Notes under the pieces: model-generated | Told to the model about the DNA's origin: nothing | What the model saw: the letters and a program-made list of their open reading frames with translations, nothing else | Database searches by the model: none | Part shown: piece after piece, positions 4,138-61,807 of the stretch | Numbering within the stretch: position 1 is the first letter of the stretch | How the letters are laid out: every line of letters starts with the position of its first letter | Made by a program: the position numbers and the translations under genes | From: Morchella semilibera | Lineage: Eukaryota > Ascomycota > Pezizomycetes > Pezizales > Morchellaceae | DNA: 64,000 nucleotides | Direction of reading: 5' to 3' | Assembly: GCA_009192285.1 (NCBI GenBank) | Contig: CM018603.1 | Coordinates: 1,527,802-1,591,801 of the forward strand

Positions 4138-5908
4138 GGCTTCGGGGATGGGTTTTCTTTTTTTTCTTTTCCTGATTGTTGGCTTGGGGGAGAGTGTGCT
4201 CAGTTCAAGTGCTGAGTTAAGGGAAGGGGAGGGAAGCTACGGTGATGTTACCCTTCATCTAGGGCATAAAATGCTAGTTGTAAAGTATGCAGTTGCAACT
4301 GTGTTCTCAGGAAATGGTATAGTTATGTTTCCTACCTTATACGGCTTAATTCTACAGCGTTTGTCATACGCACTATCGCCACTTTCCTATCTGCTCTAGA
4401 ACAACAACCGCCCCGTAGCTAATGGAGCGCTAGGTCTGGGCCGGGGATCTTGTACTTTAGCGAAACGATTCCTACATTTTGGGGCCTTCTCTATAGAAAT
4501 TCTGCACAGTTACCGCAAGCCCGCACTAAAGATAGAGTATGTATATACTTCAAGTATATATCCCATCCCAACGCAGGTTCCCGATGTCCTCTCAAGAGCC
4601 CACTCTCCACCCCCCCCCCCCCCCCCCCCCGGCGCCCCTAAAACCCAACTCCTCTGGTCGGAGAACATCCCGTCCTGTTGGCAACAACACCAATTATCAC
4701 TCGATCAATCATTGACCGGCTATTGGGTTAGGGCTACATACTAAGGTGCGGCTCTAAACCGAAACCTAACCCTTGTCCGTTGCGACCTGCGTCAGACATC
4801 AGTCCGGATAAAATTCCCCCCACGCAAGGCTACGTACGACGCGCGTCTACCCACAGGAAACTTTACGATCAAGAATACCCTCTACTCTAACCTTCTCCTT
4901 TGTTTAGTGTGCCTCGTACATGTAAGTACCTACCATATGTAAGTATATGTAGGTACATGTATGTAGGACAGCCACCCTGGTTCCTGATTTACAGTGCAGA
5001 TCGCTGCCGGGAAAGAATCGCCGTGTTTGGAGTAGTCGCGGGAGGGGAAGGTTCCGGAAGGCTTGGAGATGACGGATGTTACGGTGGATGCTTTATGGCA
5101 AGCACAAGCGGGGTATGTGAGGAGAGTGCATGTATGCAGATTAGAATTCCTCCATATAAACCAGTCCATGACACTTGAGTGACTCTACTACATGTATATA
5201 TGCAAATCGCAAAACGTAATAGCATTACCATTTTACCCGACACGCCCCGAGAAGGTCTGCCTTGTGTGTGGTTTTAAGCTTAAGAGTCTTCAAGGGCTTC
5301 CCTGACTTAGGAGTTCCCTGAAGAAGTTCCCTGTGTTAATTGCAGGGAGGAAAAATGTACCTACATTTACGTGGGTTACGTACATACGCAGCTCTAGAGT
5401 AGATTCATGTACTAGCTGTGTAACATTGAAGTGTCTTTGGCGAGGTCTGTGTTACGTTACAGACAAAGTTGGTTAGTGTCAATTACATAAATTGGATGGG
5501 GGTCTGGGCCAACGTCGTGGATTGGAAATAGAGCGATGATGTGATGTCTTGCAATGCCTGATCTAGATTTGCTTTCATTTAATTGGGCAATGTGAGGGAG
5601 AGTCATCGTGGGTACGTACTATGCTCTGTCCCGCGATACGAGAATATGTAAGGACAGCAGACTAACTTCGCGCAAGGCAGAATGGCTGTATTAAGCTTTA
5701 AGCTTCACGGACAATCCACCGTTCGACATATACACGCATTTATACATACACAAGTATACATGATGCATTCGATATATATATATAGTATACCTGTACAATA
5801 TACAAATATATAAAACCCCCACAACTTACCTCCCTCTCGACTTGAACCCACCATCGAAACCCCCCCCCCATCTTCACCAGACAAAGGCACCAGCAAATAG
5901 AACCCACA
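4138..5908. other. intergenic region
   Basis: No gene is supported. It contains a poly-C run (about 4610-4630), three TACATGTA palindromes (4917, 4954, 5189) embedded in GTAGGTAC-like sequence, and an AT-rich TATATATA stretch near 5774-5783 that could serve as promoter for the hydrolase gene starting at 5909. Confidence 0.5.
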
Positions 5909-6997
5909 ATGCTCTCAACTCTACTTTTTCCTCTCCTCCTCCTCACCTCTGTCTCCGCCCAGAGTCCTTTCCCCCCTCTCTCCGGCAGCTATAAGGTCGG
6001 TACCACTACTCTCAAACTCACCGACACCAGCCGCACCGATCCTCTCGCCCCCACCCCGCACACCCCCCGCTCTTTCGCCATACAGCTCTTCTACCCCACG
6101 TCCAACACCACCACTGCTCCTCTCGCCCCGTACATGCCCCCCGCGACTGCCACCCTCTACGAGACCGCCTACGGCCTCCCCCCCGGCGCCCTCAACTCCC
6201 TACAGCCCAACTCCCATACAAATGCCACCTACTCCGGCCCCCGAAAGCCAGGTATCGTCCTCTTCTCCCCAGGCCATCAGACCTCGCGACACCTGCACAC
6301 CGCTCTTGCCGAGGACCTTGCCTCGTCGGGCCACGTCGTCCTCCTCACGGACTACATCTACGAGGCTGACATCGTCGAGTTCCCCGACGGCTCCTATATC
6401 CTCTCCACCTTCCCCGCAAACTACACGGACGCCGACATCCTCGGTCTTGAGGCCACCCGCGTTGCAGACACCCTCTATACACTCGACCACCTCTCCGCCA
6501 TCCTCTGCTCCATCCCTGGCGTCCCACGCGCAACCACCCCAGGCAAGATCGCAATGGTTGGCCACTCCCTCGGCGGCTCGACGGTTGCAGCCGTCATGGG
6601 CGTGGACAAGCGCGTCGCTGGCGGCATCGCCATGGACGGGAAGATCTGGGGGTCTGTCGTCGACACTGGCTTTTCGGGTGCGTTTATACTCATGGGTGCG
6701 GCGGAGCACTACCGCGCTACGTATGAGTCGTGGGGACGCCTTTGGGCAAATCTGAGGGGGTGGAAGAGGGAGTTGCATTTGGAGGATGCGGTGCATTTGA
6801 CGTTTACGGATGCGGCGGTCATTGTGGAGTTGTTGGGATTGAAGGCGGTGCCAGGGATGGTGGAGTTGGTTGGTGGCATTGATGGTCTCCGCGCGTTGGC
6901 GCTGCAGAAGGTGTACGTGGGTGCCTTTGTAGATATGGTGGTTGGCAAGGGGGTGGGTAGGGAGGAGGGGAGGAAGACGTTGAGTGGCGGCAGATGA
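5909..6997 (+). CDS. secreted alpha/beta-hydrolase, PAF-acetylhydrolase/chlorophyllase-like
   Basis: A 362-aa single-exon ester hydrolase, probably exported. Residues 1-17 form a signal peptide (hydrophobic core LLFPLLLLTSVSA, likely cut before QSP). The nucleophile elbow GHSLGG places the catalytic Ser near residue 220. The Asp in AMDG (about 243) and the His in DAVHLTF (about 296) are the likely rest of the triad, in the order and spacing seen in the platelet-activating-factor acetylhydrolase/chlorophyllase group. Several NxT/NxS sites near the N-terminus fit a secreted glycoprotein. The ATG at 5909 is chosen because the signal peptide begins there. GC-rich codon use contrasts with the AT-rich flanks, as expected for a real gene. 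The substrate cannot be told; lipid esters or other small esters are possible. Confidence 0.85.
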   Translation: MLSTLLFPLLLLTSVSAQSPFPPLSGSYKVGTTTLKLTDTSRTDPLAPTPHTPRSFAIQLFYPTSNTTTAPLAPYMPPATATLYETAYGLPPGALNSLQPNSHTNATYSGPRKPGIVLFSPGHQTSRHLHTALAEDLASSGHVVLLTDYIYEADIVEFPDGSYILSTFPANYTDADILGLEATRVADTLYTLDHLSAILCSIPGVPRATTPGKIAMVGHSLGGSTVAAVMGVDKRVAGGIAMDGKIWGSVVDTGFSGAFILMGAAEHYRATYESWGRLWANLRGWKRELHLEDAVHLTFTDAAVIVELLGLKAVPGMVELVGGIDGLRALALQKVYVGAFVDMVVGKGVGREEGRKTLSGGR

Positions 6998-8093
6998 AAG
7001 GTATCCGGAGATGGAGTTTGTGCAGTAGGGGAGTCTTTGGTAGAGGCGGCGATGGCTCAATACTACCGTCGCAGATGGACACCTGCAGTTTGTAATTCGG
7101 GTACTTCTAGTACCCCTTGGATAGATAGATACATGTACCTACATGCAGCTAGTAGACAATCATAGAATACAATACTTTAATTCCCTCACCAATCCTTTTC
7201 ACTCACTTCTCCCGCGCCCTCCCGTAAAACCAAGCCTCGAGTGAGCACCGAGTGAGCACCCATGATCACGACCCCCAGATCATTACCCCGCCAAGAGCTG
7301 ATTAACCCAAACTTGCCACCCACCCTAGTAGTACAGCCCCCACTAACCCATCCTCGGCGGAATACTAACCCATCCTCGGCGGAATAGTAACGCAAGATCC
7401 CGCTCTAGGATTAGCCTAGCCTGTCATGCTTCATGAATTCTCACTCGGCTCAGTTTTGCTTTTTTGCTGGGGGCAGGGCGTTGCTACTGGCAGCAGAGCC
7501 GGGTGCAGCGTGGAATGGTATGCCCGCACTTGATGCGGGCTTCTGGGTCTGAGGATATTTCTTATGCCGTTAAACGTACACGGAGTAGTCAAACAATGGG
7601 GTACAGGGCGGCGGGGGGCGGTGGGAAATATTGTGGTTGGGTTAATCATTTCCAGATATAATTCTTACCGGTAGTAGTGGGTTTTGTTTGGGCGCTCTGT
7701 TTCGGAGTTTTTGTTCTTTTTTTTAGGCGTGTACATGTATTTAATGACGTAGTGCAAGTACAAGTATGTGACGTAGTAGACTCGTACCCATCTCCTACGA
7801 GTAGCCTGTGCGGGGGAGGGCTGGGTACGTACGAGCCTAGTGACGTAGGTGCGTGTAGAGGAAGGATATGCTTGCGGCCGTGATGTATGTACTAGCTAGG
7901 GTTCACTATACTATAGCTCCACTTTCTCATGACGGGCCTTGATCGAGTCTCCATCGATTCGACCACCTCTCTACAACTTTGGCCGCCGCCGAGGCTAGGA
8001 ACTCCTACCTCTCTGGAATTTTGCCGCCGCCGAGGCTGGGCACTGCTCCAGTACATCGTAGGCCGGCGGCGTAGCCCTCAGCAGCCTCTGGGA
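6998..8093. other. intergenic region
   Basis: No gene is supported between the hydrolase stop and the TATA box at 8094. It holds two TACATGTA palindromes (7130, 7732), the 22-bp direct repeat at 7343-7386, and two imperfect copies of GCCGCCGCCGAGGCT (about 7981-8036). Confidence 0.6.
7343..7386. repeat. perfect 22-bp tandem duplication
   Basis: Two abutting identical 22-bp units, each beginning CTAACCCATCC and ending GGCGGAATA. The element is short and there is no sign that it is mobile. Confidence 0.9.
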
Positions 8094-8486: not shown

Positions 8487-8910
8487 GAAAGCATGCGTGA
8501 ATGCTGCTTTTCAAATACACGCTCTTCTGTTGTCTTGGGCTTGGGCTGCGGCCATTCTCCTCCTCTCCGCACTCTTTTATAAGAGAGCTTTTGGGCTGGG
8601 CTGGGCTGGGCTGGGTGATTTTTTCTCCCCCAACCTCTGTTTTAACTCTTCCTGGATCCCCTGGTAAGTCTTCTAATCCTCACGTCCCAAGCCCGCCGCA
8701 TAATGAGCTAATATAGTTATAGGAGAACACTCTCTTATCTTTTCTGATCGCTCATCTTGCAACAGAGCATAGCCGCCGCAACTACCTTTCCTCATAGGAT
8801 TTCTTATTTTCTTGTTTCTGTTTTTTTTCTCCTCTTTCTCCTCCTCACTCCTCACCCCCTCACTAATTACATGTATTATATCATCTCTTACTGCTGCGGC
8901 CCGCCGTCTT

Positions 8911-12437: not shown

Positions 12438-12448
12438 TGATTTAGCTT

Positions 12449-12652: not shown

Positions 12653-14613
12653 TCCCCTACCGCCTGCATCATAGCTTATACCCTCTATATGATAGCTTAG
12701 CATACAGCGATGATATCTTATCGGGGAGTGGAGATATGCCTATCCCGAAAACTCGTGAAAGTGCACGAGTTACGCACCTGGAGGTATAAAGCATCCTTGG
12801 TTTAGGATACATTAGTATGGGAAAAGTACCGGAGGCTTTCATCCTCTATAGACAATAAGTTATCTTTTCGACTCGTGTACCACAGGGATATTATATTGCA
12901 CCGCGAATTAACACATGAGCCAACGCCTCTACCCCGCGGAAGCCGCACCTAGTGAGCCACAGCTATAGCTAGCTATCTAGTAGGACCTCACCCCCACACC
13001 TTCGATTACAAGTTTACTGCCCGCCCCCATGCATAGCTAGAAAGCTATATAATATAACAAGCGGCCCTATATCGATAAGACACCCTGCTGACTATGGATC
13101 CTTTTGGTATATATATAGGCTCGCAACCCACTATTCTATTGGCACTACGGGTGAGAAGCTCGTTCTGAGCGACACCGAACACCACAGTACCGGCGGCGTT
13201 CTGCCATAATTCACGGGCTCTAATTCATATCCGGAGGTGGAGTGGGTGTTGGGCGATACCAGTCTGGTCTATGGCTGTTCCAGGGTGTATTTTAAGATAG
13301 TGTTTACCCCCGCCTAGGCCTCTACTAAGCGGATGTTTGTGGGAAGAGAAAGGCACGCCTGTGTAGAGATATGGAGAGAGTCTATCTACATAAAATAACG
13401 CACCACGTACCACCGCCAGCCGGGCGGATCTATGGCCGGAACCCCCCCCCCCTTTCCAACGATATATGCAAGCCTCTCACCGCCACCGGATCCTCGAGTC
13501 GATATCGCCTTGCGTGGCGAGAACGATCGGGGGCGTGTTCGTTAAGGGGCTGTTGGGATGGCCCAGTTGATCAGCTTGCGTTGCGTGCGAGGCGTGATCT
13601 GCTCCTGCTGGCGTATATTTACCAATCCTACAGGCTGCGTGTGGGATGCTCCTGCGGGATCTGGGAGCGACCGCTATGGTTGTGATTTGTTAGTAGTACT
13701 GCGCTGGTGCTATGCTAGCTGTGGGGTTTCTCGGGTTCGTGTCCCCGTGCTTGTGCTTGGTCTGCGGAGATGGATCGGTTACCCCGTTTTGTGGTGTGGC
13801 TTTGGGGGGATGGGTCTGGATAGGATACGTTTAATAAGCCTGTCAATGTGCGCGCGTGTTGGGGCTAAGTGTTCGTTTTCGCACAACTAATTACCTAAAC
13901 TACGGCCTCGATATCTAAATGCTAGCTAGAAAACCAGGAAACTCTTTTTTAAAGGAGCTATGCTGATCCGAGGGTATTAAGTAGTGTGGTTCCCACTTTT
14001 CAGCACCCCACTTCAGGGAGGATGCTTATAATAGTAAAGCGTCTAGATGGTCACCGCCTATGCTAATCCTCCGCCTCAACACCCCCATAACTCACGACAT
14101 GAACAGAGGGTTTCTGGACACTATATGCAATCAGCCCCAACACTACCCTACCCCCCAGGGACTGCGACAGATACAGGCCAGCAATTACACACTCACCGTA
14201 AATCTCACAATGTGGTGCACGCTACCACCAAGACCATGGCTTCGGTGTAGCAGGTGGTATTTCACCGCCGTACATACTGGGTTTCTCCGCTCAACTAAAC
14301 CGTCATCATAAGAATTATTGATATGGGGGCGCTGGTTCGGTTCAGGTGTTTTCTGGGTGTTGCGGGTCTGGGTGAGCGTTCACATACAATGTCAGGGGGG
14401 ATAACACACCTCGTTAATCACCATCCTGGCTATCGAGCTTGATTAAATGGTAATTTTAACCAAGAGTTCACGGTCCGAGCGCGTTAACGGGCAGACCAAA
14501 ACACCACCGGTCACTCGGTCACCTTCCAGGCGGTGTGTTGCCACCCCTAACCCTTGATGGCGAAGGTTTAGTCATCAAAGAAAAAGCAAAATGAAAAAAG
14601 ATTATTAATGTTA
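12653..14613. other. gene-free stretch
   Basis: I see no gene, tRNA or strong repeat. ORFs such as the one at 13558-13890 have the Cys/Val/Gly-rich composition of chance frames and no motif. Confidence 0.5.
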
Positions 14614-14696: not shown

Positions 14697-17600
14697 TGTT
14701 GATAGTAGGGATAATTTTGGATTTATAACAATATACTCCACCAACACTCCACCCGAACCCCCGGCTTCATAACAGAACACCCCCCGTCCCGAATACAACA
14801 TACTGGGCTCGATTATATGTACCAAGTATTTTACTGTGCCACGCACTGGTCCTAGAACCCCCTACGCAATACTACCAGGAGTCCCCGGCGTACACTCCCG
14901 GCGTACACTCCCGACTTCAGTCAAGTTCATAACACAAGAGCATCGGCGGTAGTAGAGGCCAGTGCAGTTAGAAAGAGGCTTTGAGGTCAGTAACCGAATC
15001 GTGTAGTCGGAGCATGATTACATGTATTCCTGTATACTTAAGCATGTACACCACCCTTCAGTCCTATAACCCCTCCCTTCGATTTCTCAAATAATCGAAG
15101 TTACCTATATAGCACCCCCCCTCCCCACATTCAATAAGGTGGTACCCGGTTCCTGGACCCACTATCTCCCGCGGTACGCGGCAGAAAGTCACAGTGCAGG
15201 AGAGACAAGCTAGTCTTAGTCGTGATACATACATGTAGTTGCTTTCGTGGATTTGGAGTTGGGCAACCGAAAGTATGCTCTGCGGTTCTAGTTGACATCA
15301 GAGACTGAATAATAATGCCCACTCTAGCTAGTAATACAAACCTAGTCCTGTCGAGCGATCGGACTAGCTCTTACCAAGGCCCCCGCTTGCTTAATGGTTG
15401 ATCAAAAAAAGGGGGGGGGCCTCGCCTCTGTGTCCCGGAGAGAGGAAAACCAGATTAGAAAAAGTACTATTAGTTTAGTGGTAATGCTCTCTTGCTCGGC
15501 TGTCTGAATACTTAAACTGCAATTGAGTAATATAATGTGACAAATTTATAAAACACTAACTTTTATTAGGGTTATTGGCTGGTGAACCAGACCATACACG
15601 CTTCTCCTTAATCTTTACAGTACTAACTACTCTTTCCCCTCTGGAATCCATTTTTTGTGTTGAGTCGGTTGTGTAACCGTATGGAAGGTATGTACAAGGC
15701 AGGAGCGGAAGGATGGAGGGCAGAACCCATATCGATAGTCCAGTCCATGACCTAAAAGGACCTAATCATATAACTATCAGTAACAGGAACATGATTATCA
15801 CTCGAATCATAAGGCTTAACCACCACTCAATCCCACACTTCCTCTCGTTCATCTCACAAATCCCTAACCCACCCTCACCCAGCCCCCAAAACCAAGTTCC
15901 TGGAAAACGGTTTTTTGTTGTCAAAAACCGGAAAAGATATTCAAAATAAACTTCTGGAAGAACATAATATTGGATCTGGGATATTAGCGTTAAAAATTCC
16001 CCGTGGATTAAAGCAGGACTAAAGCAGGACAATACCTATTCAGTACTCGCAATTAACAACACCGCCCTCCTGACATGACCTTCCCGCCCCACAAACAAAT
16101 CTTCCAAGACCCTCCCCAGCCCAAAATGTCTTGGAGCCTTTCTCCAGAGCTCACAAAGGGTCTCCCATATTTAAATCTGAACTAAATCAGAACTTGATAC
16201 CCATCCAATTAACTCTCAATCTTTAAAATCGAGACTGAAGGCATGTAATATTACCTTACTCGCATCCTCGCTTTGCCCTCGCCTTGCTGGCCTAGTGCTG
16301 CTCGAAAACTCTCCCCCTGTATAGTTAGAATTAGATTTAAAAAAGTATGTAGGGGGCTGTGGTAGAATTGAACTTACTTGGAATATTCCGGAGCCCCCAT
16401 TTGATATTAATAATGCGCGATGATGGGCGTATAGAAAGTTCCCAAAAGGCAGAACGAACCCCTATCGTGGGTTTCTATGATTGTCAGAATCGTTTACTTA
16501 AATTTAGATGAAGAACCCATACCTAGCATTCAGCTTGCTAATTACCAAGTTCTCGATAGAGAGAGCACCCAAACCTTTGCTCAATCATGAGCTCGAATGC
16601 CCTCCATACAGGGATAGGAAGCACTATCTCCGAAAGAGCGACTCACTTTATTTAACCATTAGTAAGGTTTTTCTTATGTATATGGAATAGGCAGGGCTAG
16701 AAAATCAGGTAGGTTCTCTTACCGCAACTCAAACGACCCAAATCACCGAGGGCGAACGGCCAGGTAAATGTGGTATTATTCTCCAAAACACACAATACAA
16801 TCTACGTTGGTCAGCTTACAGCATTAACAATTCGGAGAGAGTTACATACATTTGAAGTGTTCCCGCACCAGATGTACTCACGGATTCCCATCCAAGTACA
16901 GTGGGAATATTTATACACATATATCCCCTGGGAGGTCTAGTATCCGGTTCGATGAGTTGATTCACTCGAATTGTGACCTTAATAAAGGGCTCAGGTGAAC
17001 TAAAATAATACCACCGCATAATACGCTCATTAGTTTCTCTATAGACGATATTAATAATAGCAAGATAGAGAGTATTATTCACCAGTGCTTGCAGGGGGCG
17101 AGCAAAAATAAACACCGGGAGAGCCACATATATGAATATTGTGGTCGTTGCCTAAATCGTCTAATCCATACAGTTAGAAATCAGAATTCCTGTTGAATAC
17201 ACAGTTTGGAAAGAAGTTACATACTGATTCAGGGCCAACTCTGGCACTAGGGCCCAAACTAATACCCAAAATTAACGAGAACTCCCACCAGAAATTCGGG
17301 TGGTTACTCCATACCATCTTGAGCCATGTCCCATTCTACGACACAGGAATCTATTACTTAGCATCCTGTATTGGTAACTCAGGTGTATCTTACATACGTG
17401 ATGTCCAGCCTCTAAGGCAAACCCCCAAAGACATGATGGCTACAGTTGGGAACCACTTATCCAATAAACGTGGTTGCAAACTCTGGCCTAAGACAACTCG
17501 CGTCTCTCTTATATTTAATATAATTGAGGGGCACAGGGCACACAACTCTCCATAGGCTATCAACGTCTGTTAGTCCATGATGTTAAGAGATAAATGGAAA

Positions 17601-20600
17601 GGATTTAAGGAAAAAACTACTAACGTGCAAGTATCTCTGCAATGCAGATTCAAGCTACTATAAGCCTTCGTATCAGACAACGCCTGTCTCTCTTACTAAT
17701 GCTTTGTAGAAGAAAGAATAGCTACTGGTGAAGAGGATCAGAGTTAGAATAGGCTTTATTGTAGAACATGCATAAACATTATCAACTGATTACCACCGCA
17801 CGGCCGTTACTTGGATGATTCAAAGGCTTTGATACCCAAGTAGGACGGTTTGGCTGAAGCTCGAAGGAGATACTCACTTTCCTATTCCTTGAGAAAGAAG
17901 AGCCACAAACCGGAGATAGATCTGTTGATCATCTCAACTTTGGTTTCGACACAGCCTGATGGGTTGGCTTGGATGGGCTCAGAGAGAAATAGATAACCTC
18001 TCATTTAGAGACAGTTTTGGATAAAGAATGGGATACAATTCGGTCGAATAAATTTTTGGTGTATTATTAGAGGGCGAAGAGTAGGAATGGAGAAGAGGGA
18101 TAAGAACGTTTTATTATGTGGCCCGGCGCTAAGACTCCCGAATAATCATACAATGGTATAATCTTAGAGGACTCTCTGCATACGTATACATAAATCAAAT
18201 CAATTCAAACGATTAATACAATAGTATTATTGTTGATATAATACTGTGGCCCTAGGGACGCCCTGTGACGCAAGTCCATCGCGGCGTTGACTGTTGTACT
18301 AGAGAGATGACATGGTTAATCACTTAATGTTGGCTCGGGCGACTGCAAGAAAGTTGTAGCACACTAAAAAATATTAAAAATTAAAAAAACAAAACACAAC
18401 CACAGCCATGCTTTCGTAGAAGCTTGTCTCTACAAAACCCCACCGAGGATTCCCTCCCCTCTTCCATTTCCTTTGCCCTATGATCGGCTACGAGCGGGCC
18501 GAGTATAGGCTGAAGACAACGCCTGTCGCTCTTACTGGCAGGGGTGCTCCAGCATCTGACTGAAAAAAGCCAGTGCTGGGCCCCCTACCTATTGCCGACC
18601 ACCGAGCAACCGGACCGAGTGATCTGGTGTGGTGGTCGTCCTCCCGGTGTTTCGGGGTTCTGTGTACAGGACCCAAAAAATTTAGAGCACTAAGCCCTAC
18701 CTTCGAAAGATCGGTCAGTACATGTCTCATTAATTTACCGATTAGCGGAGAAGAAGCTTATTTACCTCTCAATTAAATGGGCCTCGAAGCACAGAGAACC
18801 CCGCAGCAGGCAAATCTGCCATAGGAGGCCCTGTAGGCCGGCCCCACCGAACGAAATATCTATAGTAGTAAAAATTGTCAGTATAGAGAATCCCCTACGA
18901 AAAAAGAATGTCATGTTATCGAACTGGTGTCTGACGGAGTAGATTGTCTTGGACCCCCCACAACTATATCAAAAACCGCCAATATTAGCAACAACACAGA
19001 TAAACGGATGAAAAAGTAACCGAAAGTGACAACTTACTATCTGATCTGTTTTGTGTGGTATGCATATGCATAAACACAGCAAGCAGCAACAGAAGGATAT
19101 ATATCGCCGCCCGAAGGGCCGGTAGATATACCTAGTGTCCCACAGTACAGCAGCCCTACAGGAGAGGAGAGTCTTTGCAGTACAGTTGCCCTACAAGAAG
19201 CTTTTGGACATCAGGCGCTGGTATGGAAAGAGAAAGGAAGCAAGATAGTGAGAATGATTAGGATTGTATAACTAGGTAAGTCGACTGTCCACTGAGACCT
19301 ACCCTCAGTGTGGGCACTAGTATTAGGGCTGACTTGTTATTTAGGGTTATTGATTCCCAAAGGGCAACAGTGCTCAGTAAGCGATATAAACAGTCACAGG
19401 AGCAGGTGTTAGGTATCATATATACCTGGTATTGCTGTTGATCGTGTGCTTAAGCCTCGGCCAGGGCAAAAGAGCTAAGAAGTACCAATACCAAAGACTA
19501 TAAAACACCTAGAGAGGCTCAAAAATGATGTTTTGCGTAAAGCAAATTACCTTTTCCATATATCATGCATGTATCTACGAGGACTATATATTCATTATAT
19601 TAGTGGTTGGTCTAATAGACTTGAATATATGGCCATCCAGTTCCGGGATAATAGCATGATGAGTTATACCCACAGCAGTATTTTGATACCCAGCTCAAAT
19701 CAGCAGTAAGACAAAGAGGCTCGAGTGAGTGATCGTGAATCACTCGACTGAATTTGCTTACATCAATCATACCACATCACTCGACTTTAAATTTCTTCCG
19801 TCAAACTGTGATTATTATAACCGGGCCAGGGGAATGATGATTTTATAGTTAAATCTAGTTCCGTCTCACTTAAGTACATGTATCTTGAAGAACTCCACGC
19901 GAACGCGGCTAATCATGACAAATCACTCACTCCTCCTTACCCAGTCGTTCAAACAAGTAGGACCCGACGCTCCGGTCCATCACTATACTACATTATACCC
20001 TCCTCGGTTTAATAAACTCAACCGACTCAAGTCCTCCCAGCTTTAAAGGCTTGCGTTTCGGTGACTCGACACCGCCCGCCCAAACCTTCGAGCCTGCACA
20101 ACCGAGTACCTCCTACCACACGTAACCTCTAACGCTCCAACGAATAACCGCTTTTGAATGTTATCTCCCCAGAGCAACGCACAACGGACACCAGCACCAG
20201 AGCTCTGCCGCCCAGCGCCCCCACCTCAACTACCATCCACTTAACCTCCAGCTCGGTCCCGGTATTCGCACCCTCTCGAGTCTAAGTTGGTGGCAGCCCC
20301 ATCGGTGTTCATCCGGAGCCCTGGTCACTGTATCTCCAGAATATGGCCCAAATATAGACCACAGCGGTACCCCAGATGAGAGCTACTACGTGTTGAGCAT
20401 GGCGAGGTAGGAATGAGTAATGATACTAGAGTAGATAGTGCCGACAATAGACGTCGAACAACTAGGACATGACGAGATACAGGGCGTACTTCCTCAGAGC
20501 CAAACATGCCATCCCCTTCTACAAGGTAACTAGAAGAGGGGGAGGTGATGATCCAGTCTAACTAAGTAGCTTCCAGCAGGCTCACATCTTCTTAGTGGGG

Positions 20601-23232: not shown

Positions 23233-24798
23233 TGCTGTTGAGGTAAGTGAGCTATCGAGACCTGTAGATTAAGTTTTTATGAGTAATTGATGGCCAAGGG
23301 CGGTGAGGCGTGTGCTTCCTGGTAAAACCCAGGACTTGTACCTCCCAGTGACTAAGGAATGGGCTCGATGTGCCAAAGGAATAAGGGACGAAAGTTCATG
23401 ATATGGCGAACTGCCCTTATAGATCTCCCCAATAGCCTCTCTTCAAGATGCAGAAACAAAGTGTGAAAAGAGAGCTCCAAGCAGTGCCCAAGGGGGAAGG
23501 GGAAGGTGAGGGTGGTTATGAGAGAAAGAGAGAGGGAGGGGACAATTGAGATAAAGATTGAGTGAATTGAAGACGATTCGATTCGATTGAGAAGAAGAAG
23601 AAGAAGAAGAAGAAGAAGACTGTGATGGTGAGAATAGGTTGTAGTTGACCTCTCTTGTTCCCCGTGACAGATTCGTCGCCGTCGTCGGTAGCAGCTCGGC
23701 TGTCTCAGATGCAAGGTGGCCCAAGCTCTATTGACAATTCTTGGCACCCATTACTATTTTACCGCCAAGAGTCTACATTATCTGGGATCAATGATAGCTC
23801 TCACGGGAAATCTAAGGTTTCAATTGGATGGTTAGCTGCCCCAGATTTCTATAGGCAGAGAACCGAGTGTGTTAAGGGAGATGGCATACATATACATTGA
23901 CAAACCTCACTGCATACATTAGTATATGTACATAATAACGTCCCTCTGACCAAGATAAATATTTCTTCTCTTTCAAAACTACAACCCCACGCGAGCAAGG
24001 AGGGCCCAGCATGCCGCGAAGCGGCAGATGGCCCCGACTACGTGCGAAGATGTTTACTACACATCATTGCATTCTTGAACCGACGATATGTGGCCGGGGG
24101 CCGCTCCTCACTAGTATATATATATATATATATAGCACCACCAGTCATGGTCTTGAGCACTACAGGGGTTATATAACTACATGTACATCACGTATAATAC
24201 ATGTATTTAAACCGTAGTGCAGCGTTGGAGGCCCGTGGCCAGAAATCCGCCCAAGAGCACTTCCTATACATGAGCTCATGATCAAGCACTACGGCTTCGT
24301 GGCAGGTTGTTCTTGTACACATATGCCCATCAGCATCGTGTGTGATTAGGAATATCGTTAAAGGGTAGGAGGGTCAATGGGCCGGTTAGCACTCCGTATA
24401 AGCCGGGGAAGAATTAAAGAGTGTTTTTTCCCCCGGTTTAGGGGGGCCCCGGGGGCTCACTCGAACCTCTCCCCACTACATTAGATATCGGGTTAAGGTT
24501 CTCCACTTGATAGAGGGATACATGTCTAGTAGGCCACCTCTAGTATTGTAAATTTAGAATCAAACCTCTTATATAAACGTATACATCATGTATTTACATG
24601 TACCTACACATGTACTACAAGTATGTGCATGTGCACCATGTATACATCCTACATCCAACGATCGAACACCTATCCCACAGAAAGAAACCGAAACCTATGG
24701 ATTAATAGGCCGCAAATCCTCTTCTTCTCCCTGCCAGATATGCCGTATTTCATATTGCCACATTACATGTAACCAGCGCTAGTCTATCCATCACCGAC
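23233..24798. other. intergenic region
   Basis: No gene is supported. It contains a (GAA)n microsatellite (23590-23619), a (TA)n run near 24114-24132 and TACATGTA at 24178, 24198, 24595 and 24764. The first 500 bases probably include the AFG1-like gene's promoter and 5' leader. Confidence 0.5.
23590..23619. repeat. (GAA)n microsatellite
   Basis: Ten uninterrupted GAA triplets, probably upstream of or within the 5' leader of the AFG1-like gene. Confidence 0.9.
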
Positions 24799-29447: not shown

Positions 29448-30668
29448 CAAATCTTTTTTTTTTCCCTCCTCCTCCTCGTTCCCCTCTTTAATTAATTCGG
29501 AGGTTGCCGCCGGGTGCGTAATTGATTAGATTAGATTAGATCTATGGGGTAGCTAACTACATGTACTCTCTTATCCCTGGGCTGGACCCTTGGCTCGAGA
29601 AGTTTAATAAATAGAGGACAGTGTGAAAATGTGTGGAACTTGGTTGTGTCTCCCACATCTCAGTTTTAACGGAGTACATCCAGCACAAACCCCTCGCCAA
29701 AACCACACCACCAGTTAAGCTGAATCCGTCTTGGGCAGGCAAAAACCCCACCTCAGACTAGAGTCTCTGTTTTTGATCACGGGCTAACGTTATTGCTGCG
29801 TAGTATAGCTTCTGAAACTACATTTCAACGCACCCGGTGATCCGCGGGTGCTGCTCTAGAAGGGTTTTTGACTTGATCAATTGACTTTGCCAGTACTTGC
29901 TCCCACAGACTGAGTCAGGCACCAAAAAGAGGCCCATAAACTCGATGGAATCAGAAATGATAGTATAATACCTAGCTTTGGGCCACAAATCACCCCCCAA
30001 GTTATTGATCGTTTAACTTTGGGAATTTACTCTCCTCTATAAGTGTAGTTTTGCGATCCTCGGTCCCATAGGCTGTCCCTATAGCTACCTAATTAATTGT
30101 AACTCTATCTAATTAAATGGGGTACGTTACAGGTAGTCTGGCTCAAGGTCCCTGTGTCATGGATAGCCTGGTCGTGAAACTCTGGGCCGGCCCCCGAGCA
30201 CCTAGAGACATGTGCCATGATCAGTGCACGAGTGATCGAAGGAGTCAATATATGAGAAACAGACTTATCATTTTCAGTCTACACTCCCATATACAAAAAG
30301 ACAGCCGACGGAAGAGATGTGTGCATCATGTTGATTTTCGTAGCTCTATCTTTTACATTCAATCAAGTGGGTACGGTCATCTAATCGTTTGATAGCTATA
30401 GACGGTAGGGAGGGGGTAAAATTCACCTACACAAAACTACAGGAATCAGAATTCGGACCCACGGCGCCCAGCCCATATAAAGGCCGATTATTTCAATGTA
30501 AGGGATCCGTGGATATCAATCTCCGCGTGCTTGTGTGGAATTGAGGATTTGTTTGTTCGAAATTAATCTTCCATCCCCATAGAACACATGTGTGTCCCAC
30601 TAGTTACTTAATAAGGATCTTCGTCAGACGATGCTAAGATACATGTAGATATAATAGGGTTATTTAGC
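29448..30668. other. intergenic region
   Basis: No gene is supported. TACATGTA occurs at 29558 and 30640, and a TATATAAA-like site near 30474 has no clear gene behind it. Confidence 0.5.
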
Positions 30669-31113: not shown

Positions 31114-32379
31114 GGGTTCTTCTAATTGGCGTATGGGCTTCATTCGGCTATGTACCTAATGGTGGATTGTGGGGGCCGTTGTCAGTGAGTTGTGGACAAA
31201 GATATGGGTAAAACTAGCGAAAGGTTAGTCCCTAGTGAGAACTAGGCGAGGTTTTGTACTATAAGAGAGAGCGGACTGAAATTTTTATATAGATCTTTAT
31301 TTACATCATATTATGCCTCCATGCCTATGGTCGAAGTGGGGAGTTCTAACATTTAAATGCCGCTAAGTACGGATTTCCTTCAGCTTTTCGATAGTTATGA
31401 CGTCGTCACTCGTTGGTACCAATAGCTTGGAGTAAGGAGTTTTAATTCTAACATTTCCACTATAACTGATGTCCGCTCGAGTAATGTGGCAGTTACTCAG
31501 GCTATGCTATTGCACTTGTCTCGAATAAATCCAATTTGATGAATCTTCAACGACAGCGCAATCCTAAATATTCAGACCCACTCGGCATCTGTTTCGAGAC
31601 AACTACTATATTATGTACATGTAGCGATGGAACTATAGGCGGACCGGTGTTCAACCTAATTATTTGTAGCCAAACCAATAGGAAACCCTGCTTATTGAGC
31701 ACGACGAGGAAAACTTTTATATTATACCCCTCGGAAGCACCGCACCTAGCTATGCATCGGATCAACCCAACCGCCCATCCCCCTCTAAACCCTACTTTCA
31801 GGAGCTAGCCGGCCGCGATACAAGTAGCAGTCTGCACCCCGAGGACCAAACGCTTTGTCGATTGTCAGAGGTTTTTATTTTTGCTAATATTTGGTTTATA
31901 CTTTAGATAGCATTCAATGCCGAGTGTTCTTTTACCAATATTTCTGATGGTAGATACCTGGAATAAACCATTTTCATTCCACATTTGCTTAATTCATGCA
32001 TGGCAAATTGCAGAGCGACCCTGGCCCATAGCAACACGCACTTCAATCATTGACCCTAATTCAACATTGAAGCTTGGCAAAGTTCCTTAGGGATCCCCCA
32101 CTTGAACTGCGAGACTTCCCACCCTATTCAAGATTCAAATCAACCGCAATTATCAAAACCACTAAACACACCGACATGAGATCTCACCACCACATAAGTA
32201 CACCCAAATAATCTTTTCGTCCTTGCCTCTATCACCCACCACCCACCGCCGCGCCTCCATCACCACCACAACCAACTTCATCATCAGCACCATCTTATTT
32301 TGATCACCCAACTCCTTTTTTCTCTTATCTAACAACTCTGAATCCATTGACTCATTCTAACCAGCCGTTATCTAACACA
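31114..32379. other. intergenic region
   Basis: No gene is supported. The last 200 bases are rich in C and CA and probably hold the promoter and 5' leader of the gene starting at 32380. TACATGTA occurs at 31616. Confidence 0.5.
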
Positions 32380-36980: not shown

Positions 36981-38000
36981 GTATGTACATGTAGGTACCG
37001 TCGCATGTACCTCCACTCTACTCATTCTAGAGTCTGTTGTGTTGGAGTAGACAGCATGTACTCTACCTACATGTAGGTACCACATATGCAGACGACGGGA
37101 GTTTGCTTCATGTGCACAAAGAAGCTCATCGTGCATCGACCGCGAGCGTGATGAGGCCAAAGTACTAGATAGGTAGAGCTCCGGTACCTGAATCCTACTC
37201 AGAAAAAGGGGTGGGGAGGTGATCCATCATGGATGGGTGGCACCGCATCCCTCGGTATCCCTTTCTCCCTGTTCCTTGGAGCGGACCCTGACTGGCAGCC
37301 CGCACAACCGAGGAAACGCTAGCGACGGATAGGGAATGGTTGGTTGGGGTCTGGTTGGATTTGTTGACCCGCGAGCTGCCCAAAGTGGGGGGGGGGGGGG
37401 TGGAAGAGAGAAATAAACTGCGACTCAAGAAATCGATATAAATTTATAATTGCTTTTTGGGGGGGTTCGTCGAATGAACTTCTCGAGAAAGGGGGGGCAG
37501 TGTGCATGGGATGGCAGAGATGATGAGAAACATACTGCCATTGGATAACAGAGTTTTAGCTTGGATTGGATTGGAGGGGAAAAAGGCCTTTAGTTGGTGA
37601 GAAACATTGAGAACTGCCCTGCAGCTGGAGGGGGGGGAAATAAAAGTAAAAAAACAAGAAACAGCTTGAGCGATATCAAATGCAGGTAGAGGGTAAATGC
37701 ATATGTTGTAGGCATGATAGGGTAAACAAAAACAGAAGCATGTATGGTATCAAAAGTCATAATCATCAATCATCTTTATCTTTTCTCTAGTTCTCTCTCT
37801 TACTTGGAATATCTTTCCTACGCTCTTCGCCTAGGTAAAGAACGAGTAGCTTTTTTTTTTATTTTATCTTCTTGATATTTACTAGACCCTTCAAATCGTC
37901 TCGTCTCCAGTTGCCTTCTAGACCTTTGTTCCTCCACCGTGCTCGTTCATCACCGTTTCCCGTTTCTAGCGGTAGCGAGTGAGTGAGAGGGTCCAAGAAG

Positions 38001-46447: not shown

Positions 46448-47936
46448 TCAGGTACGCCGTTCAAGCATTGACGTATATGTGCACAGCGATTTATAAAGTG
46501 CAATTCTGCATATTAATCAACCAAGTGCAGTTCTGCGGCTTGGCGTCCCCCAGCGTCCCTACTCCACGCTTTAGTCGGAGATCTAGCTAGAGGACGCAGT
46601 GGAAGTAATATTACCTATAAACAGAATACATGTATACTGATACAATATCTAGGGGTAGATAAGCTGGTTATTACAGCGGGAACCCTGGACCTCTCACCTC
46701 ACCTTCCTATTTACGGATTATTCAAAATTACCAGCGTTAGTATGCCCCTGATTTAATTATAAAACTTATTTGTGATAGATCTTATCCAACTAAACCTAGA
46801 ACAGTGGCTGATTAGCTGAAAGCTGAATTTGCTCTACAGTCGACTATAACCTCACCGAGTGACTTTCCATGACTGACTCTATTTGCCATCGCCTCCCTTG
46901 ATACGAGACTTATAATTATCACCCTCTAACCTTATTCACGGAGCATGTTTCCGGTGTAGAAACAACTATAACTTCGCAATTAACGACATAATCCTAGCCC
47001 CCGACGGCTTTAGCTTGACATAAATTAGCACTACTCAGAACCTGATCTCAGATGACATGCCTCTTGATAAATCTTGAGCTAGTTATAGACTCATGGTTAC
47101 AGACCTACTCCTAGCCTAGTTAAACGTTCCCGAGCCCTCTATGCCACCAGACTCTAAGCGTTATATATAGATAGAAGCATTGTGATTGAGGGCGTGGAAG
47201 ATAGTAGTGTTGTGGCGGTGGCATGGTAGTTGAAACCAGTCTATGCGTCCCCAAAAATCGGCAAGGGCGCTATAGAGCTAGCTGACCCACACCTGAGCCC
47301 TAGAATTAGAGATAGACTACCGGAATGAAGCCTGTGGTGCCACTTCGCTCTGGGTTACAAATAAAGCTAGTCGAGTTAGATACAGGACTAGCCCTACGGC
47401 TCATGGGGATGCATGAGACCTGTGGGTTTAAATCGGAGAAGTCACGTACCCACTCGAACCTTAAGATGCGATGTGCTGTACCCGGTATAATCCTCTAGAA
47501 TTCTCTTGCAAGACAAATCTACAGGACTCTAGAAAATGAAGTCAGTTCCGCGGGCAGTGGATTCCGGAAAAGTGGCTCGTTTTCACAAGATAGCGATGAA
47601 GTATAATATGTAGATGTCTGGGGTAGCTGCTTGTCCTGAGAAGGACACAGAACGCATGTGTGTATCTTGAATCACAAGCTCAAAATTGACTCAATGTACT
47701 ATTAAACATATTAGGCTACAATATTTAATAGCTACATGTATGACCCTTGGCAACTAAGAGCGAGGCTCCTCAGTCTCTAATCCTTTACGTACCCACCATC
47801 ATCAATGCAGTAACCGCTATAGCATTAAGCAAGCAGCCTTGTCGAAGTCTACATATATGTAAAGTACTATTTCCCACAAACTCCTTGCAGCACCGTGGCT
47901 AATACTAAGAACCCATGCAAATCACAAAACCGAACC
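46448..47936. other. intergenic region
   Basis: No gene is supported. TACATGTA occurs at 46627 and 47733. There is no strong repeat. Confidence 0.5.
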
Positions 47937-49417: not shown

Positions 49418-51047
49418 TGCTGACCAGTTCCGGCTGGTTATGATTCTTGAAAACGAGGTGATGTAAAAGTGGGCGATTGAACATCTCCAGAGAACGGCGT
49501 ACGTATGAAGCTTGGAACAGGGGTGAAACGCGTAATTGTCAGCCCTAACCCTACGGGCGGACTAATAAACTGATGCAATGATCCCTGGTGAAAATCAGGC
49601 GGTTGTATGAATAGCGCCCGCGCTTGGCGTTCTTGTTTGTATCTTCTTGTGTTAGGAGTTCTATAGTAGATAAATACCAACCATCGTCCTTAAGTGATAA
49701 CAAGCTAAAAATGTCTCTGCAGGATACTTGGAACCTACATCTAATTACACATAAGTATATAAATAATATTACATGTACATGTAGTTTACAGAAATAGGTA
49801 AAATCAAACTTGGTGGCGCTAGTGGTATCAGGTTCGTCATTAAAAATGACTTTTATCACGATTGTATTCATACCAAATCACAAGAAATCACTCACCTTCG
49901 CCAAGATCCATGATTGCACTGCTAAGGTGTTTGGTAACACTACTCTTTGAAGGTTCCGATGCCAGGTAGCCTGTTTTTTGCCCTTACTTAGGATAGTTTT
50001 GTAGATTAGATCTTATCAATAAGGATTAGGTATGCGTCTATCTAGAAAAGCCGCCTACCCGCCTGTTTATTGATAAGAGTGGCTCGCTGGATTCTGGGCT
50101 GACCCTGGTAGCGGATCCGGTGCTAAATTCGCTGCTATCTTTATTTACCTACTTTTTCTAATACTCGATGAGCAAGGATGGCATGGCGGAGCCTGAGTCA
50201 GCTAGAAATAGTGATAAAAACTAGTTCTTGATTCACTAGGCTTGGTGCTATAGATGCTGCATTCACCTACCTACCATTTTAGTATTTATTTGGGACATTA
50301 TTTACCTTTTTCTTTGGGGAAGGGGGCGTGCTCACATTTGGATGGTGGCACTGGTGTTAGTAGTGGTGGTGGTAGGGCTGGAGATGAAGAAAGAAAGTGT
50401 ATGGGCACAGGAGGTGACATGTGGGATGGGGAGGGGGGAGTTAAGGGGACGCCGGATGTGATATTCCAAGTATATAACCCTAACCCTAACTTTTTTTTTT
50501 CCCCAGAGCAACACTATGAACCTTTCCTGGTCTCTAAAAAGACCCTTTGGTTAAGGGTGCTTTGGGGGAAAATGCTATGCCTATCGCCAAAGAATGGTTA
50601 ATTGGTGAGCATTTTGGACTTAAGATCTATACGCGCATAGGAATATTAGTTCGGACGGTAATTTATTAGAGTTATAGAACAATACATGAAATATCATCTC
50701 TACTATATCGAGTCAGACTCCATGACGCAGTTTCGAAATTCTTGGGGGTCAAGCTGGGAAAGGGTATTATGTCCAAAGCTAGGGGAGTTGTGGAGTGAGT
50801 GCATGTCTACTCGGGTCGCTCGCCGAGCTACCACGTATATGGGGAGGGTAATTACATGTATACATGTATTTATGGAGGCAATTAACAGCCGGTACGGGCT
50901 GCACACGACCATTGTACCAATGTGGACAACTACTGCCGAACCAGGGTGGGGAGGGTTGGTGTGGGTGTTTATCTCCACGGTATCTACTCTACACTGGTAG
51001 TGATTACGGGGCTGTATGCACCCATTATCCTACGTCTGGCGATACTC
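49418..51047. other. intergenic region
   Basis: No gene is supported. Contains overlapping or adjacent pairs of TACATGTA at 49770/49776 and 50853/50861 and the short telomere-like repeat at 50476. Confidence 0.5.
50476..50490. repeat. short interstitial telomere-type repeat
   Basis: Two and a half copies of AACCCT (complement of TTAGGG), followed at once by a T run. Too short to mark a chromosome end. Confidence 0.7.
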
Positions 51048-51359
51048 GCTGACCCAAAAAGTGTGGCTTTACTAACAGAACTTCTTATCCCATACTTAGT
51101 AAAAGGTCGTGAAAAATTGCCCCAGTTCCTTTCACGACCTTTTACTAAATGCCTAAGTAGTCCGTAAAATGCTGACCCCCAGAAAAAGTAAATTTATTGT
51201 GGCTTTACTAACAGATCTTGTTATCTCCCTTATCAAATAATAGATCTTCCATATAAATTTAATTTCTCCGTTATAGGAGGGTCAGAAACGCTGTGAAGTT
51301 GCGAGTACATACATTCTTCTCTCTATTATAGGGGGGTCAGCATTGGCAGACTAAGGGAT
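51048..51359 (+). repeat. MITE-like element family A, copy 1 with a partial copy and hairpin
   Basis: The main copy (about 51151-51359) is bounded by inverted repeats: ATGCTGACCCCC at 51169 against GGGGGGTCAGCAT ending at 51343, extended outward by CTAAG..GTC against CAGACTAAGGGAT. Inside is GTGGCTTTACTAACAGAT, then ATAATAGATCTTCC. A partial copy (51048-51090: GCTGACCC, then GTGGCTTTACTAACAGA) lies to its left. Between them is a perfect 19-bp hairpin (51096-51114 with 51130-51148; arms TTAGTAAAAGGTCGTGAAA; 15-nt loop). The second copy is at 59768-59936. Confidence 0.7.
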
Positions 51360-57948: not shown

Positions 57949-57980
<32 letters not shown>

Positions 57981-59222
57981 TCTATCTCTCTTTATCCTCC
58001 CCGCGATTCTCCTCTTTCCTTTCTTTTCTTCATTTCCCGTTCTATATTGAACTTGTTGGTTTTTTTTTCTTTCTTTTGCGTCTAGCTCAGTTAAACTGTG
58101 TCTCTTAGGGTAGGGGTAGGGGTACGAAGGTGGTGGGAGGAGGCGGGGGGGGAGGCGATTAAAATTCTTTACAATCTCATTGGCACTGTGCATCCTCTTT
58201 TCTAAGTAGTTTCTTTCTGTTTTTTTCCGAGTATTATATGGATGATCAATAAAAGTTGGGTTACTACCACACGCCGCTAGTTGGTTTGGTTGGGTACATG
58301 TAGTAGTAGACTAGAGAGTACTAACTACATGTAGTGCTAGTGCTAGTGCCACTTCTACTAGAGTATATGGCCCGCGGCCACTTTTATAAACACTACTCTA
58401 CAAGACCTCAGCCTCACACTCCACTACCCTCCCCGGCGCCGAGAGCCTATAGCCCATTTTCATCCTACACGCGAGCACTCTAAAATAAATGCCACAGCAA
58501 ATCAACTAACAATCCACGAGTGCACTGGCCACATCCATATTCCCAAACCCTGAGTCCAAATCTTGAGCTCTTGGCGGGCTATTCACCAAAACCTGTCACC
58601 AAGAACTAAATATTTAGACCCAGAACTTGTTGGCTAATACGCTCTAATAATTAACTATAAAACCCACAGATTAAGCCCCCGACTGTGGTAGAAAAAAGAA
58701 AAACCATTCCGATGCAACCATTGATCTAAAAAAAAAAAAGCCAGAAAAACATCAAGCATCTTATACAATTAAAAAGAATAAAAACGGAACCAACCACGTT
58801 CACCAATCGCCCTCTCTGTAGCTATAACAGAGCAGAGGAAGGGCGTCTCTTCAACAGGGAACACCGATGTAGTCCGTAATCTGCCGTCTACGATCCTCAA
58901 CCAGGGTATTCGCGGGCAAGGCTGGAAGTCCGAGTGCCTGAGAAGCGGCTTGAAGTTGATTTGCTGAGAATCATGAAATATTAGCAAGGACCACATTAGA
59001 CCTTTTAAGCCAACAGAAAAAAAGATCGGCAAATAAAAGGATCAGCGTCTACTAGCCGGAGGTAGTAGGTATGATATTTCCTATGCCGCTCACAGAGGCC
59101 ACTATCATGGTATCAAAAGTACAACCGTGCAAGCATGGCTATTAACTGCGTTTACCAACCTAGTACGGCTAGTAGAGGATTATCTTTTTTTTGCCGATCT
59201 TTTCTTTTCTGCAAACGACGGT
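57124..59222. other. T-rich 3' flank and intergenic region
   Basis: Probably 3' untranslated sequence of the C2H2 gene with very long T runs (57955-57980), then AT-rich spacer. Frames here are Phe/Leu-rich artefacts. TACATGTA occurs at 58295 and 58326, and a TATAAA near 58385 is not followed by an ORF. Confidence 0.5.
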
Positions 59223-59627: not shown

Positions 59628-59767
59628 CGTATCCGTTTGAAGTGTAGTATTGTAAACGAGCTGAGTACCGAAGAAGTCCTTTCTCCCAAAATAGATTTTA
59701 CTCCGTATATGCAGATCGAGTGGTGGGGTTGAAGAAAAAACAAAGGAGAGAGCGAAAGCTCTCTCTT

Positions 59768-59936
59768 CATCCTTCAGCCCGCCAATGCTGACCACCCTAT
59801 AATAGAGGAACTAAATTTGTATGGAAGATCTATTATTCAGTAAGGGAGATGACGGAATCTGTTAGTAAAGCCACACAAAGCTTGCTTCTTCTTGGGGGTC
59901 AGCATTTTACTGACAGACTAAGGGATAGTTACAACT
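59768..59936 (-). repeat. MITE-like element family A, copy 2
   Basis: Reverse-oriented homologue of the 51-kb element. Inverted ends are CATCCTTCAGCCCGCCAATG with CTGACC on the left and GGGGGTCAGCAT..CAGACTAAGGGAT on the right. The interior TCTGTTAGTAAAGCCACA and GGAAGATCTATTATT are complements of the copy-1 interior. The coiled-coil gene's ATG lies about 140 bp from its left end, so the element sits in that gene's promoter region. Confidence 0.7.
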
Positions 59937-61807
59937 CCAGAGGCCAAACCACCTCTAGTACAATAGTACACATAGCATGACAACATACATGTAGCAACGA
60001 TTGACCACAATAGAGAGTGCTCACCAAGTGCCAAAACCGATAATTTACACTTCGCCACATTAAAAGGCGGTTGACCTAAACCGTCAATTTTGACCAATTT
60101 TCTAAAGTGGGGATGTATGATACGCCCAGAGATGTTTACTGTTATACTGCGCGTAGTTTACTCTATATCCTGCCAGGGTATTTCAGTACAGTAAGCGAGT
60201 TTCTCCTTCCTTGTGTGGTTAATTACAAGTAGGGGAACTGTCAACTTTGCCTCCCGCAACCGTCACATTCAAAGTGTCAATTATTGGATTTGGCACTTAA
60301 TAACTACTCTCTAGTACGCTCTATTCAACAGTTATAAACCATAAAAGGAAAGGCAATTCCCTTACTAAGTGGTGCACGGTCCAGGTCGTGAATTTGACCA
60401 CTTTCACCATGGGATAGACCGAGTGCACCTGTGCACCTGTGCCATAATAAAGGAAGCATTTTAGCCACCATTTGGAGTAGGGGCTGCGGGTTCAGGGTCA
60501 GGTTTACTGGCACCAAGCTGGCACGGCACTAAGGAAAAGAAGTCCCGAGAATTGATTTGATCCCTGACCCTGGATGATTAATTCCCGAGGAATTGAGCCC
60601 CAAGGATTGAGTACCCGGAGCCAGAGCCCTAGCCCTGCTCCGCGCGAGTACCTACACAAGTACATGTATTTGATATCCTTCTAGCGTATTTCACAGCCTG
60701 GCGAAGTGTGAATTGTAATAATATTCCGACCTTGAAGCGCTTTAACAGTACTCGCGCCAGGAACATGCAACTGACATTACAGGGGTTACTTGTACAGAGC
60801 GATGTTGATCATCAAATTGAGCCACAAGTGCCACAGAAGCCACAGGTGCTGGATACAGACGAAGGGATGCACACCCCTCCTTGCGTATCGCCAGCCGTCT
60901 CCAAGAAGGCAGCTTTAAAGCAAAACCTAGCCCTCACTCTCCCGCCTCTGTTTTTGCGAATGGATTATTACCATGGGTCTGATGATACTATGGAGACACC
61001 TGAAAAAGGTCACAGGAGGTGACTCGCCGGGTTTAAAGAGTAGGACGGAAGTACAGCGCGAGGTCGTAAATTATGGGAAGACACCAAAAATCAACTTGGT
61101 CTTAGAGACCACCCAATTAGTACGAATAATTTCTGATGTAGGCAACGACTAGGAAGAGTGAATTTGCCGAGGAACTTGTCGGGGGTCTTGGTCAAAATCG
61201 ACCACCACAGCATCTCTTCAACCTCGATAATGTCAAAATACAAGGATTACCAAAAATGGAGCCCCTCCACCACTTCCGGGGCCCGTTTCCCTCGATGTAC
61301 TATTACTAGAGTAGAGTAGAGTAGTACTATTACTGTACCTAAATGTCTTGTAGCATAAGGGGGGGGTTTCACCGGCCACTAGCACAAGGGCCAATGACCA
61401 ATCGGCGTTAATGGGGGGGGATCTTAGCGCAGCAGCTAGTTAACACGATGCTGTACCTTATCGTGTCACTGCTACAATTGACAGTACTGCAACTATCCAC
61501 CCTACTAGAGTACATACTTCTTAGCCTACTGGTTACCAGATCTAGGGTACATACACACTTGCTTTAGTAGGTACGTGTACTGCTACAATAGGGGTAGTTA
61601 ACTGCGTACGGCCATTTAGCAGTAATTATTTATCTTATCTCCCTCCAAGCTAGCCAGGTACAGATAAATCATTAGATTGTAGTAGATACTAAGTCAAGGA
61701 TCCTTAACTTCCAATTGATAAGAGGCGGAACTTTCCGCCACACTCTATCTATATGTACTTATGTAGGTACATGTATCCTACTAATCACTTCCCCCCCCCC
61801 CCACCTA
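59937..61807. other. intergenic region
   Basis: No firm gene. A frame ending at 61022 (first ATG at 60765) gives 85 codons with no motif. Poly-G runs near 61361 and 61414, a poly-C run at about 61791-61801, and TACATGTA at 59986, 60661 and 61768. Confidence 0.5.

Follow-up and report, generated by a model that had tools for sequence, protein, structure and literature searches.

A palindromic octamer abundant in the noncoding DNA of Morchella semilibera as a probable excision scar of Tc1-type transposons

The window studied here, a whole stretch of 64,000 nucleotides from the ascomycete Morchella semilibera (C1:1527802-1591801 of a 56.76-Mb assembly in 23 contigs), carries 29 exact copies of the 8-letter palindrome TACATGTA, the first at 4917 and the last at 61768-61775. 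Our results suggest that these copies are probably accumulated excision scars of Tc1-type transposons. The most direct evidence comes from dispersed repeats of which copies with and without the octamer can be compared.

This before/after comparison used 44 copies, with 11.6 kb of interior sequence, of two unrelated families of miniature inverted-repeat transposable elements (MITEs), R2 and R3. R2, about 382 bp long (TATGGTGCGG...CCGCTCCATA; L020:5834-6215 and L034-L053), was detected by self-comparison of our sequence sample as a repeat holding TACATGTA; from 119 matched stretches and 319 candidates, the best 40 were scored and 20, picked among the more diverged, were fetched. For R3 (L028:3956-4183, L015:7196-7425 and L054-L073), the best 40 of 105 candidates were scored and 20 fetched. 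Exact internal TACATGTA occurs three times in the 44 copies, twice as a clean 6-bp insertion, once within a longer insertion and never by substitution. In the R2 copy of L028 (site 9852), GGTGGTAAATACATGTAGTTTATC stands where L044 and L045 read GGTGGTAAATAGTTTATC, a 6-bp gain that turns TA into TACATGTA; L051 and L047 are one base different from GGTGGTAAATAGTTTATC, at this TA L050 reads TATATA, and the other R2 copies have different or deleted sequence there. In the R3 copy L073, AAAGTACATGTATTTGGG replaces the AAAGTATTTGGG of 17 of the 21 other copies, again with 6 bp gained at a TA. The third case is the R2 copy L046, in which TACATGTA lies within an 18-bp insertion; an extra pattern search in R2 returned L046 alone, already known. 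Two further 6-bp insertions in R3, TACATGTC in L070 and CACATGCA in L073, are TACATGTA with one or two substitutions and, from their letters, look like decayed insertions of it. In simulation, a random 6-bp insertion creates a new TACATGTA with a probability of 0.0008. Insertions of 6 bp with other forms are also present (CAGCTG in L037, CTTGAC in L052), and both families carry additional TA-duplicating micro-insertions. By eye, many R2 copies are bordered by direct repeats of about 7 bp; R2 is therefore probably not itself a Tc1-type element.

The flanks of the octamer carry a signature of their own. At 92 isolated sites, with the octamer collapsed to TA and strands pooled, A is found at -3 in 60% and T at -4 in 53%, versus 30% and 30% at 12,800 control TAs. 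The collapsed pattern is TANN[TA]NNTA, and the symmetric extended form around the intact word is TANNTACATGTANNTA. A TA four bases out is present in 38% of flanks, versus 10% for control TAs and at most 0.20 in all 20 comparison words with at least 30 occurrences. Together with the enrichment of GTACCTAC in the sample (28 vs 5.9 expected), this bears out in part the earlier note on this DNA, made from the sequence alone, which had placed many copies in GTAGGTAC-rich strings. Left and right flank TAs are independent, occurring together at 19 sites vs 21.6 predicted, and paired flank positions agree no more often than composition predicts. The pattern resembles a preference for palindromic targets centred on TA, as in the symmetric target pattern reported for Sleeping Beauty (excerpt of PMC5801840), and a protein site could look alike. 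In a test for dispersed repeats no common flanking sequence was found, the profile being near background beyond about 8 bp.

The word is also nearly exact. In both-strand counts of the sample, its eight transversion neighbours number 83 in all, with 86 expected, a single one being raised (TACTTGTA, 22 vs 10), and its four transition neighbours number 89, with 44 expected. A TA four bases out accompanies 21% of transition and 16% of transversion neighbours. Since these neighbour words retain part of the flank signature, they look to us more like decayed forms of the exact word than like a degenerate motif. Among 15 other palindromes of the form TA-XYyx-TA, counted with TACATGTA masked, TATATATA (52 vs 9.2) and TAAATTTA (14 vs 4.8) are prominent, and a further four or five, each counted 5 to 8 times, are about doubled; for TACCGGTA there is no enrichment (2 vs 2.5). 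TACATA, a possible partial footprint, is enriched as well (237 vs 137, order 2), with little TA preference in its flanks (0.14 vs 0.38).

The excess itself withstands several background models. The earlier note had counted at least 29 copies of an over-represented palindrome against some 1.2 expected from composition; the exact count is 29, and Markov models of the window predict 1.2 (order 0), 1.7 (order 3), 6.1 (order 4), 13 (order 5) and 22 (order 6), the high-order values mostly restating the word itself. No other palindromic octamer of the window is as common, and on the plus strand only poly-T and poly-C octamers exceed it. The whole genome holds 22,206 copies and 3,723 of the reversed word ATGTACAT, about six times rarer, and the tandem TACATGTATACATGTA occurs at 100 places vs 4 for the reversed word, genome-wide counts that take in duplicate contigs of nearly identical sequence. 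A 248.7-kb sample has 150 copies for 7.7 expected at order 3, the top z-score among the octamers ranked (those with at least 12 copies). Models of the noncoding part alone predict 8.9 (order 3) and 30 (order 4), so that the enrichment survives the third-order test. This sample is biased upward, with 0.60 copies per kb for a genome density of 0.39: L002, L004, L005, L007, L009, L026, L028 and L029 lie at tandem TACATGTATACATGTA sites and L027 was picked from a list of TACATGTA positions. The loci not chosen for sites, L027 excluded, hold 67 copies in 172.7 kb, a genome-like 0.39/kb. Omitted from the sample are L001 and L003, which overlap other loci, the C10 copies L006, L008, L010, L012, L014 and L016, and all later loci. 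A single exact palindromic octamer hugely over-represented genome-wide recalls HIP1 of cyanobacteria; HIP1 is common in coding DNA, unlike the excess described here. Further words enriched in the sample are ATCACTCG, CTAGCTAG, GTACCTAC and long poly-C and poly-T tracts.

The excess of TACATGTA is confined to noncoding DNA. Genes were called with a self-trained ab initio coding hidden Markov model (HMM; 63 gene models, HMM calls alone, annotation not compared), and all 150 copies lie in the 190.6 kb of noncoding DNA and none in the 62.6 kb called coding. The exclusion from coding exons seen in the earlier note is thus real as a count, but the coding Markov model expects just 0.26 copies, so there is no depletion below chance. 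In loci not chosen for sites, divergent spacers hold 21 copies in 25.6 kb (0.82/kb), tandem spacers 18 in 32.5 kb (0.55) and convergent spacers 15 in 25.1 kb (0.60); for the whole sample the values are 36 in 36.0 kb (1.00/kb), 0.86/kb and 15 in 27.5 kb (0.55/kb). Any promoter bias appears weak. The copies are clustered. Among the 99 gaps measured on C1, 11 do not exceed 40 bp, where 1.8 would be expected, and 35 do not exceed 250 bp, where 10.8 would be, in part because genes occupy space. The shortest gaps are 6, 8, 10, 10 and 11 bp, five of 99 vs 0.5 expected. The overlapping and adjacent pairs reported earlier at 49770/49776 and 50853/50861 are both present in the window, whose copies are as follows (no strand is assigned to the palindrome; all are exact matches).

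4917..4924, TACATGTA copy 1
4954..4961, TACATGTA copy 2
5189..5196, TACATGTA copy 3
7130..7137, TACATGTA copy 4, within an antisense stop-free stretch (6203-7138) that is noncoding by HMM
7732..7739, TACATGTA copy 5
8868..8875, TACATGTA copy 6
15019..15026, TACATGTA copy 7
15230..15237, TACATGTA copy 8
19875..19882, TACATGTA copy 9
24178..24185, TACATGTA copy 10
24198..24205, TACATGTA copy 11
24595..24602, TACATGTA copy 12
24764..24771, TACATGTA copy 13
29558..29565, TACATGTA copy 14
30640..30647, TACATGTA copy 15
31616..31623, TACATGTA copy 16
36986..36993, TACATGTA copy 17
37068..37075, TACATGTA copy 18
46627..46634, TACATGTA copy 19
47733..47740, TACATGTA copy 20
49770..49783, TACATGTACATGTA, copies 21 and 22 (49770 and 49776) with one TA in common
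50853..50868, TACATGTATACATGTA, adjacent copies 23 and 24 (50853 and 50861)
58295..58302, TACATGTA copy 25
58326..58333, TACATGTA copy 26
59986..59993, TACATGTA copy 27, outside a copy of MITE R1 and 57 bp away from it
60661..60668, TACATGTA copy 28
61768..61775, TACATGTA copy 29

According to the scar model, a Tc1-type element with ends CA...TG would insert at a TA in accessible intergenic DNA and duplicate it. If later excision cut two bases in from each end, CA and TG would remain between the two TAs, turning TA into TA-CA-TG-TA, an exact 6-bp gain. Such a cut, two bases inside the 5′ ends, has been measured for the transposase of the related element ISY100 (excerpt of PMC2170065). The Tc1 footprint taCATGta of C. 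elegans, described as rare in the available part of PMC3520976, which cites Eide and Anderson 1988, has the same eight letters, with TA duplicated and four bases between the TAs; it differs from the present case in that rarity, for here 22,206 copies of the word stand in one genome. Scars would then accumulate, tolerated chiefly between genes, and point mutations would slowly erode them. A later hop into a TA of such a scar would yield TACATGTACATGTA, an event which the overlapping pair at 49770 fits; if both TAs of a TATA or a TANNTA were hit, spacings of 8 and 10 would result. We infer a transposon as the maker of the insertions, the two-base cut and this origin for most of the 22,206 copies. 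Surviving elements need not be as numerous as scars, since each neutral hop would leave one scar.

Tc1-type elements exist in the genome. A profile search gave 69 DDE_3 transposase matches, 57 of them over cut-off, duplicate contigs included. One Tc1-type element (L032:868-2287) has an open frame of 378 codons with DDE_3 and HTH_Tnp_Tc3_2 domains, ends CAG...CTG and a duplicated TA, and sits in the palindrome TGTAGG[TA]CCTACA. Its target, TAGG[TA]CCTA, fits the flank preference of TACATGTA. In MITE R3, 44 ends read TANATGTA up to the boundary and CCCAGGG after it, with A at -5 in 34, A at -7 in 26 and T at -8 in 24 of them; R3 would be either a TA element targeting ATG[TA]CAT or one that ends ATGTACCC and duplicates no target.

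Several observations weigh against an origin by excision. The CAG...CTG element is low copy and so at most a candidate source; one further full Tc1-like element was read, which ends CTC...GAG at a target without the flank preference. A scan for TA-flanked inverted repeats ending CA...TG, which has little power, found 32 candidates, and 25 when run on reversed sequence. Just two clean before/after pairs are available, both from one genome. Simple TA-duplicating insertions (TATATA, TAAATA) carry little weight, tandem slippage yielding that form with a probability of 0.39. The R2 carriers are diverged by 22% and 16%, yet five other copies above 16% are without TACATGTA, figures which subfamily structure inflates. 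Seven of the 44 R3 ends build an exact TACATGTA with their flank and four more do so at one mismatch; these were excluded from the internal count. No copy is found in 14.7 kb of noncoding DNA from three repeat-rich loci, where 7.8 to 8.2 were expected. This zero is compatible with youth of these loci, if accumulation is slow, and with closed chromatin, but also with selection. Finally, work on Phytophthora has rejected the view of TACATGTA as a footprint and calls the word a rare Tc1 footprint (excerpt of PMC3520976).

Besides an origin, an insulator and a chromatin signal, the earlier note considered a site for an abundant DNA-binding protein and a sequence-specific mutational or insertion process. 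The last is favoured by the internal MITE copies, which arose by insertion, two of the three as clean 6-bp gains at TA; the protein site gains little from spacers, neighbour words or the homeodomain search. As the site of a homodimeric transcription or chromatin factor, held by selection in intergenic DNA, TACATGTA would naturally be palindromic, confined to noncoding DNA, symmetric in its extended flanks, clustered, poor in one-step neighbours, missing from the three repeat-rich loci and densest in divergent spacers. Phytophthora adds to this, since motif-1 was found in 12,070 upstream regions (excerpt of PMC3520976) and M93 was over-represented in hyphal promoters (excerpt of PMC3597505). 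Against selection for binding, the spacer differences are small in loci not chosen for sites (21, 15 and 18 sites), seven of the eight transversion neighbours are not raised and the MITE copies gained the word by insertion, not substitution. The sole Homeobox_KN (PF05920) match among seven candidates covers profile positions 1-31 and continues ...VSNWFINARRRR, with isoleucine where the Irx homeodomain presumably has alanine (the Ala50 rule), and so is not Irx-like. No Irx-like homeodomain with Ala50 was found in this search, which divergent or split genes could escape. We consider a binding site, the main rival, unlikely as the origin of the word, while scars could have been used as binding sites once formed, so that both readings would be partly true.

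A different insertion process, for instance a domesticated transposase or a repair reaction writing CATG and a second TA at TA steps, would equally produce two exact insertions at TA, and it would agree with the scarcity of CA...TG-ended elements and the additional TA-duplicating micro-insertions in R3 and R2. The Tc1 footprint gives the same letters by a known reaction, and to our knowledge no process is known that writes CATG and TA at TA steps; we regard this explanation as improbable. Composition, microsatellites or a single repeat family can hardly be credited, even with the TA-rich strings around some copies and an order-6 model that, largely by restating the word, predicts 22 of the 29: the order-3 noncoding model gives 8.9 of 150, the word read in reverse has six times fewer copies, and no common flank links the sites, the excess having also survived the check for one repeat family. 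A wider version of the scar reading, more doubtful than the reading itself, is that one TA-directed 6-bp micro-insertion process, most likely excision or other action of a Tc1-type transposase, may have rewritten some 20,000 intergenic TAs into TACATGTA, and that TACATGTA and TACCGGTA of Phytophthora may be scars too.

In Phytophthora, the same palindrome is known as motif-1 or M93 and is highly abundant upstream of genes (excerpts of PMC3520976 and PMC3597505). It has been put forward as the site of a transcription factor, Irx-like TALE homeodomains being the candidates, and is over-represented in promoters of certain stages (PMC3597505). There the word is read as a binding site with expression correlates, whereas in Morchella the spacer bias is weak and the origin is by insertion where it can be checked. 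The P. infestans motifs M93 (TACATGTA) and M94 (TACCGGTA) differ in their central bases alone (excerpt of PMC3597505). By analogy, such a difference would be expected from two-base scars of elements ended by CA...TG and CC...GG. Elsewhere, TACATG was absent from the text examined on the Magnaporthe MoIsw2 palindromes (PMC11481914), a candidate that we set aside; PMC8081344 and PMC3349750 contain the octamer letters in primers only, and PMC11267843 none of the three sub-words tried. In the literature on octamer motifs and Tc1 footprints, covered in part, no description of TACATGTA as genome-wide excision scars was found. If the scar reading is true, motif discovery in fungi and oomycetes can pick up over-represented palindromes that are transposon scars instead of regulatory sites, and such motifs would have to be interpreted differently. 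Past transpositions that no surviving element records could then be tallied, with 22,206 places in the 56.8 Mb as the upper limit; transposon history could be read genome-wide from the scars, which would also supply ready-made palindromes in large numbers. This is directly testable with any two related genomes.

A third repeat family, the short MITE R1 (CCCTTAGTCTG...CAGACTAAGGG), lies in the window at 59783-59929 and 51160-51285 and has 259 candidate places in the genome, of which the best 40 were scored. It is young, at about 91% identity to the window copy, and two patterns joining R1 and TACATGTA gave no match; this would fit slow accumulation of scars, but also selection or closed chromatin, and is a weak zero as the number of copies with intact anchors is not known.

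The contigs C9/C10, C12/C13 and C21/C22, the latter two pairs by matching hit positions, are near-identical with shifted coordinates, and C9/C10 look like one chromosome assembled twice. Taken as an allele pair, C9/C10 offered no informative difference in TACATGTA across six compared pairs of stretches: three are 100% identical where aligned, one holds a diverged repeat region, and two differ chiefly by single-base or homopolymer-type indels and a few longer ones. In L018 (C12:1000001-1010000), 4,471 of 10,000 bases are N and the remainder is repeat-rich and without TACATGTA. A partial 5.8S-like match with fungal-looking letters and an intron in L030 of fungal appearance agree with a filamentous fungus; a window kinesin set against solved structures gave no indication of lineage. 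The genes of the window itself include family matches, not specific to fungi, to kinesin, GH95, AFG1 and C2H2.

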